Shown here: positions 5,939 to 10,372 of the stretch, in pieces | How the letters are laid out: each line of letters starts with the position of its first letter | Position numbering within the stretch: position 1 is the first letter of the stretch | From: Chloroflexota bacterium | Lineage (GTDB): Bacteria; Chloroflexota; Anaerolineae; DTLA01 | Length of the DNA: 43,383 bases | Assembly (NCBI GenBank): GCA_014360805.1 | Contig: JACIWU010000019.1 | Location: forward strand, 1 to 43,383 | Direction: 5' to 3' | Notes under the pieces: generated by a model | The model's input: the letters and a program-made list of their open reading frames with translations, nothing else | Database searches by the model: none | What the model was told of the DNA's origin: nothing | Made by a program: the position numbers and the translations under genes

Positions 5939-5967
5939 TGGACGAGAAGGCCATCTCGGTTTATACT
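5939..5967 (+). promoter_or_regulatory. Predicted promoter of the 2-hydroxyacid dehydrogenase operon
   Basis: TGGACG (5939-5944) and TATACT (5962-5967) with a 17-nt spacer, about 30 nt before the ATG at 5998. Confidence 0.55.
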
Positions 5968-5997
5968 GAATGCCGAATCCCTCATCGGAGCGTGGAT

Positions 5998-7011
5998 ATG
6001 GCCGAGAAAGTCAAAGTGTTGAGCGTGCTGAAACTGTCGGATGAGCAACTGGCGCGGCTGCGAGCCGTCTCGCCCGCCCTGGACATCGCGCAGATCACCT
6101 GCAAGACGCCCGAAGACATGTTGCCGCTGGTGGGCGAGCCGGAAATTCTGTACACGTACCACGCCGACTTCCTGCCCGAACAGGCGCCGCGCCTGAAGTG
6201 GGTGCAACTCTCCAGCGCGGGGGCCGATCACCTGCTGGACAAGCCCATCATGAAATCGGACATCGCCATCACCACGGCCAGCGGCATCCACGCCGTGCCC
6301 ATCGCCGAATACGTCTTCGGCTCCATGCTGGCCTTCGCCCGCCGATTCCCCCTAGCCTTCGCCCTGCAGCAGAAGCACGAATGGCCCAAGGGGCGCTGGG
6401 CGGCCCTGCTCGGCGCGGAACTGCGCGGCGCAACCATCGGCATCATCGGCTACGGCAGCATCGGCCGCGAGATCGGCCGTCTCGCCAAGGCCTTCGGCAT
6501 GCGGGTGCTGGCGTCCAAGCGCAACCCGGGCAGGCGCGAAGACGTCGGCTATCGCATCCCCGGCGCGGGCGACGCCCAGATGCAGCATGTGGACGGCGTT
6601 TTCGGTCCCGACCAACTGGAGCAGATGGTGTCGGCGTGCGACTACGTGGTGGTGGCGCTCCCTCTGACGCCCGAGACACGCGGGATCGTGAGCGAATCGG
6701 TCATTCGGGCCATGAAGCCGACGGCGTACTTCGTCAACATCTCACGGGGCGAGGTGGTGGACGAGGAGGCGCTCATCCGCGCCCTGCGCGAGGGCCGCAT
6801 CGCGGGCGCTGGCCTGGACGTTTTCTGGCAGGAGCCGCTGCCGCCCGATAGCCCGCTGTACGACCTGCCCAACGTCATCCTGACGCCACATATCGCGGCG
6901 ACCACGGCGGCCTACAACGACCGCGCCACCGACCTGTTCGCCGAGAACCTGCGGCGCTACCTGGCTGGCGAGCCGCTGCTGAACCTGGTGGACAAGACGC
7001 TGGGATACTAG
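5998..7011 (+). CDS. D-isomer-specific 2-hydroxyacid dehydrogenase
   Basis: 337 residues, normal length. The NAD fold GYGSIG starts at residue 151, followed by the SRGEVVDEEAL segment; the catalytic set is present as Arg in ISRGE, Glu in FWQEPLP and His in TPHIAATT. It should interconvert a 2-keto acid and a D-2-hydroxyacid with NAD(P)H in the cytosol; the substrate cannot be read from sequence. The ATG at 5998 has GGAG at 5987-5990 with a 7-nt spacer; an in-frame GTG at 5992 is too close to that site. It leads an operon with a GalT-like protein, PyrK/PyrD-like proteins and Dtd. Confidence 0.92.
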   Translation: MAEKVKVLSVLKLSDEQLARLRAVSPALDIAQITCKTPEDMLPLVGEPEILYTYHADFLPEQAPRLKWVQLSSAGADHLLDKPIMKSDIAITTASGIHAVPIAEYVFGSMLAFARRFPLAFALQQKHEWPKGRWAALLGAELRGATIGIIGYGSIGREIGRLAKAFGMRVLASKRNPGRREDVGYRIPGAGDAQMQHVDGVFGPDQLEQMVSACDYVVVALPLTPETRGIVSESVIRAMKPTAYFVNISRGEVVDEEALIRALREGRIAGAGLDVFWQEPLPPDSPLYDLPNVILTPHIAATTAAYNDRATDLFAENLRRYLAGEPLLNLVDKTLGY

Positions 7012-7029: not shown

Positions 7030-8118
7030 ATGACCGAACACGAACGTACTATCGCCGATTTGGAATCCCTGGTGGCCGCGCTGCCCGAGGCCGAACGCGA
7101 ACGATTTGCCCGCATCTTCCACATTGCAACCGACCAGGCCGACGTGGTGATTCCCGCGCCGATGAAGGCCGAAGTGGAGGCGCTGTTCGGCGGCGTGGAG
7201 CCCGTGCTGCGCCAGACGCTGGTGCGGGTTACCAACCTCATCACCCTGGACGGCACGCTGTTCAACCCGCTGCGTCAGCGCCGCCCCCACGACGAGCGGC
7301 TGGCGTCATCGGTGGACATCCCAGGCCCGACCGCCGACGACCCCTTCTGCGCGCCGCTGGAACGCACTACCGAAAACACCTTCGGGCGGGTGCGCGGCGC
7401 TTTCTCTGTAACGGCAGCGAACCTTGTGCCCATTGAGCGATTCCACTCGGTCATCATCTTTGACGAGCACGACCCGCTGGCTTTCACCGAGGCGTCCATC
7501 GACGACGCGTTGGAAACCGCATTGGCCTGGGCGCGGGCGGCCCACAGCGCCGACGCCGACGTGCGTTACTTCATGCTGTTCTGGAACTGCCTGTGGCGGG
7601 CCGCCGCGTCGCGGGTGCACGGCCACATGCAGGCCGTGTTGGGCAAGGGTATCCACTACGCGCAGGTGGAAGCCTTGAGGCGGGCGGCGCTCCTTTACCG
7701 CATCGGCCACGGCACGGACTACTTCGCGGACCTCTGCGCGGTTCACCAGGCGCTCGGCCTGGGCGTGGAATCCCAGGGCGTCCACGTCTTCGCCTACCTG
7801 GCGCCCAAGAAGGAGAAGGAGGTCTGGGTGGTGGCCGACCGCATCGGGCCGGCGTTTGTCCACGGCGTGTACGGCGCGCTCCAGGCGTATGTGCGGCATC
7901 TCGGCGTCCAGAGTTTCAATCTGGCGCTGCTGTGGAAGCCCATAGACTCCGTGCCCGAAGACTGGGCCGGGTTCCCGGTCATCGCGCGGATGGTGGACCG
8001 CGGCCCGCTCCACAGCAGGACGTCGGACGTGGGTGCCATGGAGTTTTTCGGGTCCAGCGTCGTGAGCAGCGATCCGTTCCGCGTGGCCGACGCGCTGCGT
8101 GAGGCGTTGTCGGGCTGA
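7030..8118 (+). CDS. GalT/HIT-superfamily nucleotidyltransferase-like protein
   Basis: 362 residues. The central region reads like galactose-1-phosphate uridylyltransferase: FNPLRQRRP, then NLVPIERFHSVIIFDEHDPL, then HGHMQ at residues 197-201, which fits the HxHxQ nucleotidyl-transfer motif (HPHGQ in GalT). His199 would be the nucleophile. The zinc cysteines of classical GalT are not evident and the N-terminal 60 residues are unfamiliar, so this is a divergent member and the substrate is unknown. GAGGAG at 7021-7026 precedes the ATG, 18 nt after the dehydrogenase. HIT or GalT superfamily is fairly sure; a specific activity is not. Confidence 0.72.
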   Translation: MTEHERTIADLESLVAALPEAERERFARIFHIATDQADVVIPAPMKAEVEALFGGVEPVLRQTLVRVTNLITLDGTLFNPLRQRRPHDERLASSVDIPGPTADDPFCAPLERTTENTFGRVRGAFSVTAANLVPIERFHSVIIFDEHDPLAFTEASIDDALETALAWARAAHSADADVRYFMLFWNCLWRAAASRVHGHMQAVLGKGIHYAQVEALRRAALLYRIGHGTDYFADLCAVHQALGLGVESQGVHVFAYLAPKKEKEVWVVADRIGPAFVHGVYGALQAYVRHLGVQSFNLALLWKPIDSVPEDWAGFPVIARMVDRGPLHSRTSDVGAMEFFGSSVVSSDPFRVADALREALSG

Positions 8119-8128
8119 GAGGCAAGCG

Positions 8129-8884
8129 ATGGCCCCATGGGTTACACGCGCGCGGGTGGCCGAGGTTCGGGTGCTGGACCCCGATCTGCTCTGGCTTCGC
8201 CTGCGCGCGCCCGACGTGGCCGCATCCCTGCGGCCGGGGCAGTTCATCGCCGTTGTGGATCGCCAGCGGCTGGAGCCGTACCTGCCCACGCCGCTTTTCC
8301 CCACCCACCTCTCGGCAGAGGACCTGGGATGCCTGCTCCAGATGGACGACCGAGACCGCTGGCTGGCGACGCTATGGCCGGAGCGGCCGATTCAGGTTAC
8401 AGGGCCACTAGGCAACGGCTTCGCGCTGAACGCCGCGGCGCGCAATCTGCTGGTGGTGTCCGAGGGGATGGAAGGGCTGCCGCTGCTGACGCTGGTGCAG
8501 GAAGCGGCGGCGCGGCGGCTAGAGGTGTCGTTCCTGGTGTGGAGCCCGTTCAGCCGCGCCGAACTCCTGCCGCCCGGGCTGCTGCCGTCATCGGCGGAGT
8601 ACCGCTCGGCCGTGGGAACCGAGGCCCTGACGGCGGCGTTGAGCGAAACGCTGCGCTGGGCCGATGCGGCCTATGCGGCGGGGTCGCCCGCGCTCCATCT
8701 GGCCCTCGCCGAGGCCATACAGCAGGTGCGACTGCGCTACGCCCGGGGGTTCTGCCAGGTGCTGGTGCGCGGGCGGATGCTGTGCGCGCTCGGCGTGTGC
8801 GGCGTGTGTCGGATTCGGCTGCGTCGCGGGTCGGCCCGCGTCTGCGCCGACGGCCCTGTGTTTGACTTGCGCGACCTGGTGTGA
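8129..8884 (+). CDS. Divergent PyrK-like ferredoxin-reductase/2Fe-2S protein
   Basis: 251 residues. Layout follows dihydroorotate dehydrogenase electron-transfer subunits: an N-terminal FAD-type barrel with LRPGQFIAV, then GPLGNGF starting near residue 92, an NAD-type domain, and a C-terminal 2Fe-2S site with Cys219-x4-Cys224-x2-Cys227-x11-Cys239 and the usual CADGPVFDL ending. It departs from family at two key places: the RPFS-type flavin motif is replaced by LPTPLFPT, and the Gly-rich GGGxG nucleotide loop by SEGMEG. Electron transfer through the cluster is plausible; FAD and NAD use are doubtful. It starts 10 nt after the GalT-like gene and overlaps the PyrD-like gene by 4 nt (GTGA), so they are likely partners. 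Confidence 0.75.
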   Translation: MAPWVTRARVAEVRVLDPDLLWLRLRAPDVAASLRPGQFIAVVDRQRLEPYLPTPLFPTHLSAEDLGCLLQMDDRDRWLATLWPERPIQVTGPLGNGFALNAAARNLLVVSEGMEGLPLLTLVQEAAARRLEVSFLVWSPFSRAELLPPGLLPSSAEYRSAVGTEALTAALSETLRWADAAYAAGSPALHLALAEAIQQVRLRYARGFCQVLVRGRMLCALGVCGVCRIRLRRGSARVCADGPVFDLRDLV

Positions 8885-9752
8885 AGATGCGCGAAACGAT
8901 GAGAGCCTCTGCGAACCTGTCGGTGGATTTGGCCCCTGGGCACAAGACAGGACTTCCCCTGGCCACGCCCATCCTGCTGGGGTGTGGGGCGGCCGGATAC
9001 GGGGCCGCGCCCGAGGCGGTGGATGCGGCGGCGCTGGGCGCGGTGGTTACGCTGCCGCTGGCCGCGCGGGCGGTCGGCAAGTCGCCGCGTTTTGCGCCTG
9101 TGCCCGCGGGTGTCGTGATAGACACCGGAGGCCCGGCGGCGGTGCGGTCGGTGCTGCGCCACTGGGCAAAGCGCTGGCGGCGGGCCAATCCGCCGGTCAT
9201 CGCGCACGTGGCGGGCGAGTCGCCGGCGGAACTGGCCGCCTGCGCCGAGGCCCTGGAGGAGGCGCGCGAGGTCGCTGCGCTGGAATGGCGGGCCGACGCC
9301 CTGCCGCCCGACGAGGCCGCGCGCGCCGCCGCCCGACTGCGCGCTGCCAGCGACAAGCCGCTGCTGGTACAGGTCCCCCTTGCAGGCGCGGCCGACTACG
9401 CCGAGGCGCTGGTCGGCGTGGCCGATGCCCTCGTAGTGGGCGCGCCCCCGCAGGGGACCGCGTGGAGCGTCGAGGACGAAGCCTGGGTGCAGGGCGACGT
9501 GCACGGCCCGGGCGTGTTCGCGCGCTCCTCGCCTTGCGCGAGTTCCCCTTCCCGCTGGTCGCTTTCGGCGGCCTCCACGCGCCGCATCAGGCGGTGCAGG
9601 CCGTGCTCGCGGGAGCCAGCGCCGTGATGCTGGACATCGCCATCTGCCGCCTGCCCGATTTGCCCGGCCAGGTCTTGGCGGCTATCATGGATGAATTGGA
9701 GAACCGAGCGTTGGACGACTTGCGACAACTGGTGGGCCGCGACGCTGGATAG
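8881..9752 (+). pseudogene. PyrD-like FMN protein, frameshifted and lacking catalytic residues
   Basis: Residues encoded by 8881-9522 follow dihydroorotate dehydrogenase: NLSVDLA, GCGAAGYG, LGAVVTLPL. After 9522 the homology continues in another frame (LLALREFPFPLVAFGGLHAP, then AGASAVMLDIAI, the FMN-phosphate loop) to the stop at 9752. Restoring one base within 9520-9524 joins both parts into about 290 residues. The family's NxSxPN motif is absent (ALEWRADAL stands there) and the active-site Lys is Gln in LLVQVP, so even the repaired protein should not be an ordinary dihydroorotate dehydrogenase. GTG at 8881 overlaps the PyrK-like stop; ATG at 8887 is an alternative. The shift may be genuine or an assembly error. 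Confidence 0.7.
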
Positions 9753-9776: not shown

Positions 9777-10241
9777 ATGCGAGCCGTGGTGCAGCGCGTA
9801 ACGCATGGCAAGGTTACGGTGGACGGCCAAACCGTCGGGGAAATCGGCGACGGGCTGGTCGTCCTGTTGGGTGTCAAAGACGGAGACACGCCCGAAGACG
9901 CGGCGAAACTGGCCGACAAGGTGGCCAATCTGCGCATCTTCAGCGACGCCGACGGCAAGTTCAACCTGTCGCTGCTGGACGTGGGAGGGGCCGCGCTGGT
10001 GGTGTCCCAGTTCACCCTCTACGGCGACTCGCGGAAGGGCCGCCGCCCCAGTTTCACCAACGCCGCCCCGCCCGATGTGGCGGAACCCCTCGTGGCGCGA
10101 TTCTGTCAGGCGCTGCGGGGCCTCGGTGTCCGTGTGGAGGAGGGCCGCTTCCAGGCGCACATGCTGGTGGAAATCCACAACGACGGCCCCGTAACGTTGA
10201 TTCTGGACACCGAGGATCTGGCCCGCCCTCGCCGCTCGTGA
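9777..10241 (+). CDS. dtd: D-aminoacyl-tRNA deacylase
   Basis: 154 residues, standard size. The two family motifs are present: SQFTLYGD near residues 79-86, with the active-site Gln/Thr region, and NDGPVTL near 137-143, equivalent to the Gly-cisPro cross-subunit motif region. The enzyme is a cytosolic dimer that removes D-amino acids (and Gly mischarged on tRNA-Ala) from tRNA. GAGAGG at 9764-9769 lies before the ATG. It is the last gene of the rightward operon, 24 nt after the PyrD-like gene, and is followed by repeats. Confidence 0.95.
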
Positions 10242-10343: not shown

Positions 10344-10372
10344 TTGACATGTGGTGCGGGGGTGAATATAAT
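10344..10372 (+). promoter_or_regulatory. Perfect sigma-70 promoter of the efflux operon
   Basis: TTGACA at 10344-10349, exactly 17 nt, TATAAT at 10367-10372. Both hexamers match consensus completely. The untranslated leader would be about 130 nt, carrying a palindrome (10389-10399) and a hairpin (10437-10460). Confidence 0.85.

Follow-up and report, generated by a model that had tools for sequence, protein, structure and literature searches.

The window, a 43,383-nucleotide stretch of DNA from a Chloroflexota bacterium, carries five collinear genes, two of which encode proteins resembling PyrK and PyrD, the subunits of class 1B dihydroorotate dehydrogenase (DHODH). The features of this region are as follows.

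5939–5967, + strand: promoter-like site (9/12, consensus match only), upstream of the five collinear genes
5992–7011, + strand: D-2-hydroxyacid dehydrogenase (PF02826/PF00389), opening the probable transcription unit
7030–8118, + strand: HxHxQ-motif protein, 362 aa, GalT/HIT-like as a lead only, without Pfam or NCBIfam match
8129–8884, + strand: divergent PyrK-like protein, 251 aa, intact ORF
8783–8845, + strand: four cluster cysteines of the PyrK-like protein (C219, 8783–8785; C224, 8798–8800; C227, 8807–8809; C239, 8843–8845)
8881–9519, + strand: readable N-terminal part of the PyrD-like gene, 81% identity to the intact congener, omega 0.22
9519–9520, + strand: 13-nt deletion by comparison with both congeners, frame shifted
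9520–9752, + strand: remaining, C-terminal part of the PyrD-like gene, read in a different frame (ALLALREFP...), conserved in congeners
9777–10241, + strand: D-aminoacyl-tRNA deacylase (DTD), also a neighbour of the pair in several other families

The five genes from the hydroxyacid dehydrogenase to dtd are flanked by two promoter-like sites (5939, 10344), an arrangement that, as far as consensus matches can indicate, suggests a single transcription unit. The second site (10344–10372, after dtd) is a perfect sigma-70 consensus, TTGACA-17-TATAAT (12/12), upstream of membrane-fusion-protein/ABC transporter-like genes. A search of the window for tRNA genes found none. Both congeners, G001 and G002, have the order GalT-like, PyrK-like, PyrD-like, DTD; in G002 the hydroxyacid dehydrogenase is also present upstream, and the G001 contig begins inside the GalT-like gene. 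The label GalT-like stems from a sequence-only reading of this DNA and holds in part: the HxHxQ motif is present (HGHMQ), but the protein matches no Pfam or NCBIfam family and finds only Ap4A phosphorylase as a faint match in the PDB (E 0.89). Homologues of this protein also stand beside the pair at two loci of family f29 (L115, L116).

The PyrK-like protein combines FNR-type FAD/NAD modules that lack their cofactor motifs with an intact C-terminal [2Fe-2S] domain. The translation bears out the earlier claim that the four cluster cysteines (219/224/227/239) and GPLGNGF (residues 92–98) are retained while the flavin and NAD motifs are lost: LPTPLF replaces the canonical RRPxS and SEGMEGLPL replaces GGGxGxAPL, and the canonical CGP has become AGS. 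The protein exceeds the PF10418 cut-off (41.7 vs 23.9 bits); PyrK is its best curated match, yet it stays far under the NCBIfam PyrK cut-offs (57.4 vs 219 bits). Structure prediction, run on the PyrK-like protein alone, yielded a PyrK fold (pLDDT 94.3, pTM 0.91), and, among the matches listed by a structure search, L. lactis PyrK (5ksw_B; Z 27.7, rmsd 2.6, 242 aligned) ranked above Nfn and sulfhydrogenase subunits (Z 24–25). L. lactis PyrK is also its closest solved relative by sequence profile.

The PyrD-like gene starts with GTG at 8881, within the GTGA overlap of the two genes (8881–8884) that the sequence-only reading had described. That reading had also treated it as one open gene, which it is not: frame 1 spans 8881–9519 only and the remainder to 9752 lies in another frame, because 13 nt found in both congeners are missing directly after 9519. 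In G001 and G002, which belong to the same genus, the gene is whole, with a frame of 293–294 aa. Omega before the deletion is 0.22 vs G002 and 0.20 vs G001, and behind the deletion (71 codons from 9537) it is 0.29 and 0.38, respectively. Thus, the sequence behind the deletion is still constrained, and the break is either recent or an assembly error.

These data bear directly on whether the two genes are functionless, decaying relics of a replaced PyrDB/PyrK, a reading with which the broken frame in the window would agree, as would a few further assemblies where the genes are broken or split (L070, L089). We regard it as very improbable. Omega is well below 1 in both genes, including behind the deletion (whole genes, 0.11–0.36; PyrK-like, 0.27, 0.27 and 0.11; PyrD-like between congeners, 0.36), the open frames are intact in almost every one of the 61 class members that were read, and the partners are present or absent jointly. 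The neighbouring genes gave omega values of 0.08 (DTD) and 0.15 (GalT-like).

As had been noted, the PyrD-like protein of the window lacks NxSCPN (EWRAD instead), the FMN/substrate lysine of TKT (TLPL) and the lysine of VKLSP (VQVP); it also lacks INT. The roles that we assign to the canonical PyrD and PyrK residues are presumed from the L. lactis dihydroorotate dehydrogenases, in which we take the TKT lysine to be Lys48. The FMN-phosphate region had been read as kept. GG and GA are indeed present, but the phosphate-contacting G-T is D-I in the window, and D/R-S in most relatives, and the site is therefore only partly kept. The intact congener protein scored under the cut-offs of NF005574 and TIGR01037 (75.7 vs 269 and 62.6 vs 270 bits), and all of 13 PyrD-like members matched these profiles at E ≤ 0.01. 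PyrDB is thus the best curated match, far under cut-off, and the closest solved relative is L. lactis PyrDB.

The changes seen in the window recur across the class, in both divergent PyrD and divergent PyrK, as alignment of homologues revealed. For PyrD, residues were tallied in an alignment of 70 divergent and 64 canonical sequences, the two sets being parted by the NxSCPN motif, so that the count for this loop and its catalytic cysteine (0/70 vs 64/64) reflects the motif that defined the sets. Nine positions are invariant in all 64 canonical sequences and absent or rare in the 70 divergent ones, namely the lysine of TKT (mostly N/G/A in divergent PyrD), the asparagine of LNxxGL in LNxxGLQN (L and others), the N, S, C, P and N of NxSCPN, and the N and T of INT (A/S and P). 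The serine of LSG is replaced by Y/H/F/A. Family alignments rule out that the catalytic residues are displaced yet present. Newly conserved in 68 divergent rows are a proline after VT (52/68), W102 (66/68), the proline of KLP (60/68) and a Pro-Pro (50/68 at each place). In the PyrK-like alignment, whose 64 rows include a few canonical ones with an odd FAD motif, the Fe-S cysteines are kept in 62–63/64 rows, RPxS, GGGxG and CGP decay, and W177 (52) and E157 (54) are newly conserved.

These alignments also leave room for a genuine oxidoreductase acting on a different substrate, in which FMN would be held by the phosphate loops and electrons would arrive from ferredoxin or flavodoxin through the PyrK-like [2Fe-2S] cluster rather than from NADH/FAD. 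In divergent PyrD the FMN-phosphate loops persist (GG in 68–69/70, GA in 70/70), the first-strand A-x-G is kept in nearly all, and the VKLSP lysine position holds K or R in 51/70 (Q in the window), and the protein may therefore still bind FMN. Moreover, a review (PMC8097209) describes relatives in which electrons travel from flavin to flavin through the interface cluster. Set against this, the TKT lysine, NxSCPN, INT and the LSG serine are gone in the divergent family, the G-T that would contact the phosphate has D (47) or R (10) in its first place in 57/70, hence an acid in 47/70, with S in the second place in 44, and a search of the divergent PyrD alignments for a new conserved catalytic Cys/Ser loop found none. 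Such an FMN-dependent enzyme, receiving its electrons by way of the cluster, is a serious rival to the reading we prefer, and one that we hold possible though doubtful.

A second, canonical pyrD and pyrK had been suggested as something to look for in the genome, and both were found, on contig C101 together with a pyrF-pyrE fusion. This pyrD carries EVNISCPN and this pyrK carries EKPFSL and GGGYGAAPL, and the canonical set rules out the PyrD/K-like pair as the sole DHODH of the genome. The genome has its pyrB on contig C87, and contig C74 encodes a third PyrK-type protein (NfnA-like), beside a GltD-like gene as in Nfn. The pair of the window does not stand among pyrimidine genes, as had been observed.

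Three genomes that are 93–96% complete (G040, G082, G177) contain both divergent partners and no canonical pyrD or pyrE over cut-off. In G082 and G177 pyrB, too, has no match over cut-off, and G040 has a single pyrB match (242 bits), arranged like the second, paralogous match in its relatives. As pyr genes tend to be clustered, the loss of a single contig from the assembly could account for each case, and these genomes do no more than suggest a pair independent of pyrimidine synthesis. The clearest link to pyr genes among the divergent loci is in G307 (L132, G307:C34:5568-16305), where the divergent PyrK/PyrD pair lies directly behind pyrB, pyrFE, canonical pyrD and canonical pyrK, an arrangement that may signify a pyrimidine link for the pair. 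It would favour a pair that assists or regulates pyrimidine synthesis as an additional subunit, or that acts as a reserve dihydroorotate dehydrogenase. We consider such a role unlikely: in the window no pyr genes adjoin the pair, nor do they, as far as the gene clusters show, in the other divergent loci examined, except in G307 and at L117 and L118, where a carbamoyltransferase-type gene lies some kilobases from it; the three genomes above keep the pair without a canonical pyrD or pyrE over cut-off, the possibility of a missing contig notwithstanding; and divergent PyrD has lost the catalytic residues. As a separate observation, in G055 (G055:C10:159902-160672) and its relatives of family f19 a PF01180 protein adjoins pyrB and pyrE and the usual high-scoring pyrD is absent; this protein looks like another type of DHODH.

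Many Chloroflexota keep a second, altered class 1B DHODH pair, whose partners are nearly always kept or absent together. Profile searches of 298 class genomes, with thresholds fixed after both score lists had been viewed (≥141.9 bits for D; ≥89 bits for K, where the next band is at ≤82.7 bits), found both divergent partners in 109, D only in 7, K only in 7 and neither in 175, so that each partner occurs in 116/298. Counted as misses were G270 and G188, whose K scores 80 and 78 bits beside a D, and G229, whose D is cut by a contig end. Co-occurrence gave a Fisher p of 3.6e-63, a figure inflated by relatedness. The partners are on different contigs in at least 31 of the 109 genomes, and in three they share a contig but lie far apart (G028, 0.41 Mb; G212, 0.52 Mb; G235, 1.82 Mb). 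Chance resemblance to PyrD/PyrK is ruled out by the profile matches, the fold and the 109 joint occurrences.

Divergent PyrD was read as sequence in 61 of the 116 class genomes over threshold. Outside the class it was found in family f70, G444 and G307; three further high matches that were read (L058–L060) proved to be canonical PyrDB. Among these non-class genomes, a divergent K-like gene was present in 15 of the 16 searched (14 of f70, G444 and G307), including all 9 in which divergent PyrD was read as sequence. In f70, divergent PyrD is separated from its partner, and in several genomes it neighbours Mur ligase and FemAB genes; at L121–L125 it is a standalone gene with a Mur ligase and a FemAB-type gene close by, and the K-like gene lies either elsewhere or ~3 kb off. 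The matches listed by a wider contig search for relatives were mostly canonical PyrK, and among those read only L135, L137 and L146 look divergent. The congener PyrD-like sequence had no tblastn match in 72,556 plasmid records, and a plasmid link for the pair was rejected on this basis. Our literature search for a divergent PyrD/PyrK pair found no paper.

In a quick, unrooted PyrD tree, 68 divergent sequences split from 64 canonical ones on a single branch (SH-aLRT 99). L058–L060, PyrDB from other classes of the phylum, fall on the canonical side next to the split, and the canonical PyrD of the class (L134, L020) and of G307 (L132) group together elsewhere in the canonical part. The tree is compatible with a native PyrDB/PyrK that was replaced and acquired another job. 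Distances of D and K correlate across 38 adjacent pairs (r 0.66, Mantel p 0.001), to which species relatedness contributes; by a strict gap rule, K is adjacent at these 38 of the 70 divergent loci and lies at larger distance at more. The PyrK-like protein of G017 (L022 1477-2244, G017:C168), whose gene adjoins that of its partner, has lost all four cluster cysteines. Both G017 proteins are the longest tips in the pair trees, and its PyrD-like protein is also the longest in the PyrD trees, as dependence on the cluster would predict, in this single case.

The sugar/hydroxyacid operon in which the pair had been placed is present in the window but is local: a GalT-like gene occurs at 5/70 divergent loci, whereas a Crp-type regulator occurs at 11/70 and 19 DTD genes (9 on the same strand) were found. 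The GalT and hydroxyacid genes are therefore not a functional context that applies generally across divergent loci.

Comparison of the sequences establishes that the pair shares ancestry with PyrDB and PyrK, that its catalytic and NAD/FAD motifs have been lost whereas the [2Fe-2S] ligands persist, and that both proteins are under selection and are retained together. The sequence-only reading had proposed a repurposed redox pair of unknown substrate. Its first half, a repurposed and non-pyrimidine pair, is well supported by the canonical set elsewhere, the class-wide residue loss, the unlinked co-occurrence, the single clade and the purifying selection. Redox action on a substrate is less certain; with changes at the flavin-ring site and at those for FAD and NAD, the [2Fe-2S] ligands are the one feature clearly preserved, and a substrate may therefore not exist. 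We give about even chances to a class 1B DHODH turned into a non-pyrimidine iron-sulfur complex, an electron carrier or redox sensor. Such a converted complex probably lacks NAD and FAD; whether it holds FMN is uncertain.

Under this proposal, the pair would derive from PyrDB and PyrK by a single remodelling early in these Chloroflexota, and the resulting complex would neither oxidise dihydroorotate nor exchange electrons with NAD, nor serve pyrimidine synthesis. The subunits would still assemble like PyrDB/PyrK, a two-subunit assembly (a heterotetramer in class 1B DHODH) being what we infer from co-occurrence, and the PyrD-like barrel would mainly be a scaffold needed by the PyrK cluster. According to the review PMC8097209, PyrK appears to need PyrDB for the insertion of its Fe-S cluster, and PyrDB is destabilised when PyrK is missing; a scaffold role would thus explain co-retention without catalysis. 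The [2Fe-2S] cluster would be the working centre, passing single electrons to or from an outside partner or sensing redox state or iron, and the altered barrel pocket, with its newly conserved Pro-Pro, Tyr-Gly-Pro, Asp-Ser and K/R, may hold a different, perhaps regulatory, ligand. In its most specific form, a flavin-free and NAD-free pseudo-dihydroorotate-dehydrogenase whose iron-sulfur scaffold acts as a redox/iron sensor or one-electron hub, long kept in Anaerolineae-like and Chloroflexus-like bacteria, the proposal is tentative.

Annotation pipelines are likely to label such proteins as subunits of dihydroorotate dehydrogenase, and pathways reconstructed from those labels would be misleading. 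If our reading holds, the proteins would represent a rare joint loss of catalysis in both subunits of a three-cofactor redox enzyme, with one cluster kept, and a testable two-gene system in culturable Chloroflexota.

Among known systems, NfnA/SudB and the sulfhydrogenase gamma subunits share with the PyrK-like protein a PyrK-type FNR module and a C-terminal [2Fe-2S] domain, as the structure search indicated, but they bind FAD and NAD(P) and their partners are GltD-like or hydrogenase subunits (in part after PMC8097209). The closest likeness is to class 1B DHODH (PyrDB and PyrK; L. lactis 1EP1-1EP3, 5KSW), with which the pair shares full-length homology, the PyrK fold, four [2Fe-2S] cysteines, adjacent overlapping genes and the GG/GA barrel loops. 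Unlike that enzyme, the pair lacks the NxSCPN base loop, the FMN/substrate lysine, RPxS and GGGxG, scores under the NCBIfam cut-offs and, in the window, lies outside a pyr operon. Pseudoenzymes are non-catalytic paralogues kept as partners, in which fold and partner are retained and catalytic residues are lost. The pair resembles them in its retention of fold and partner and its loss of catalytic residues, but what seems to have happened in this case is that both subunits of a redox enzyme jointly gave up most of their cofactor sites, all but one, across the class.
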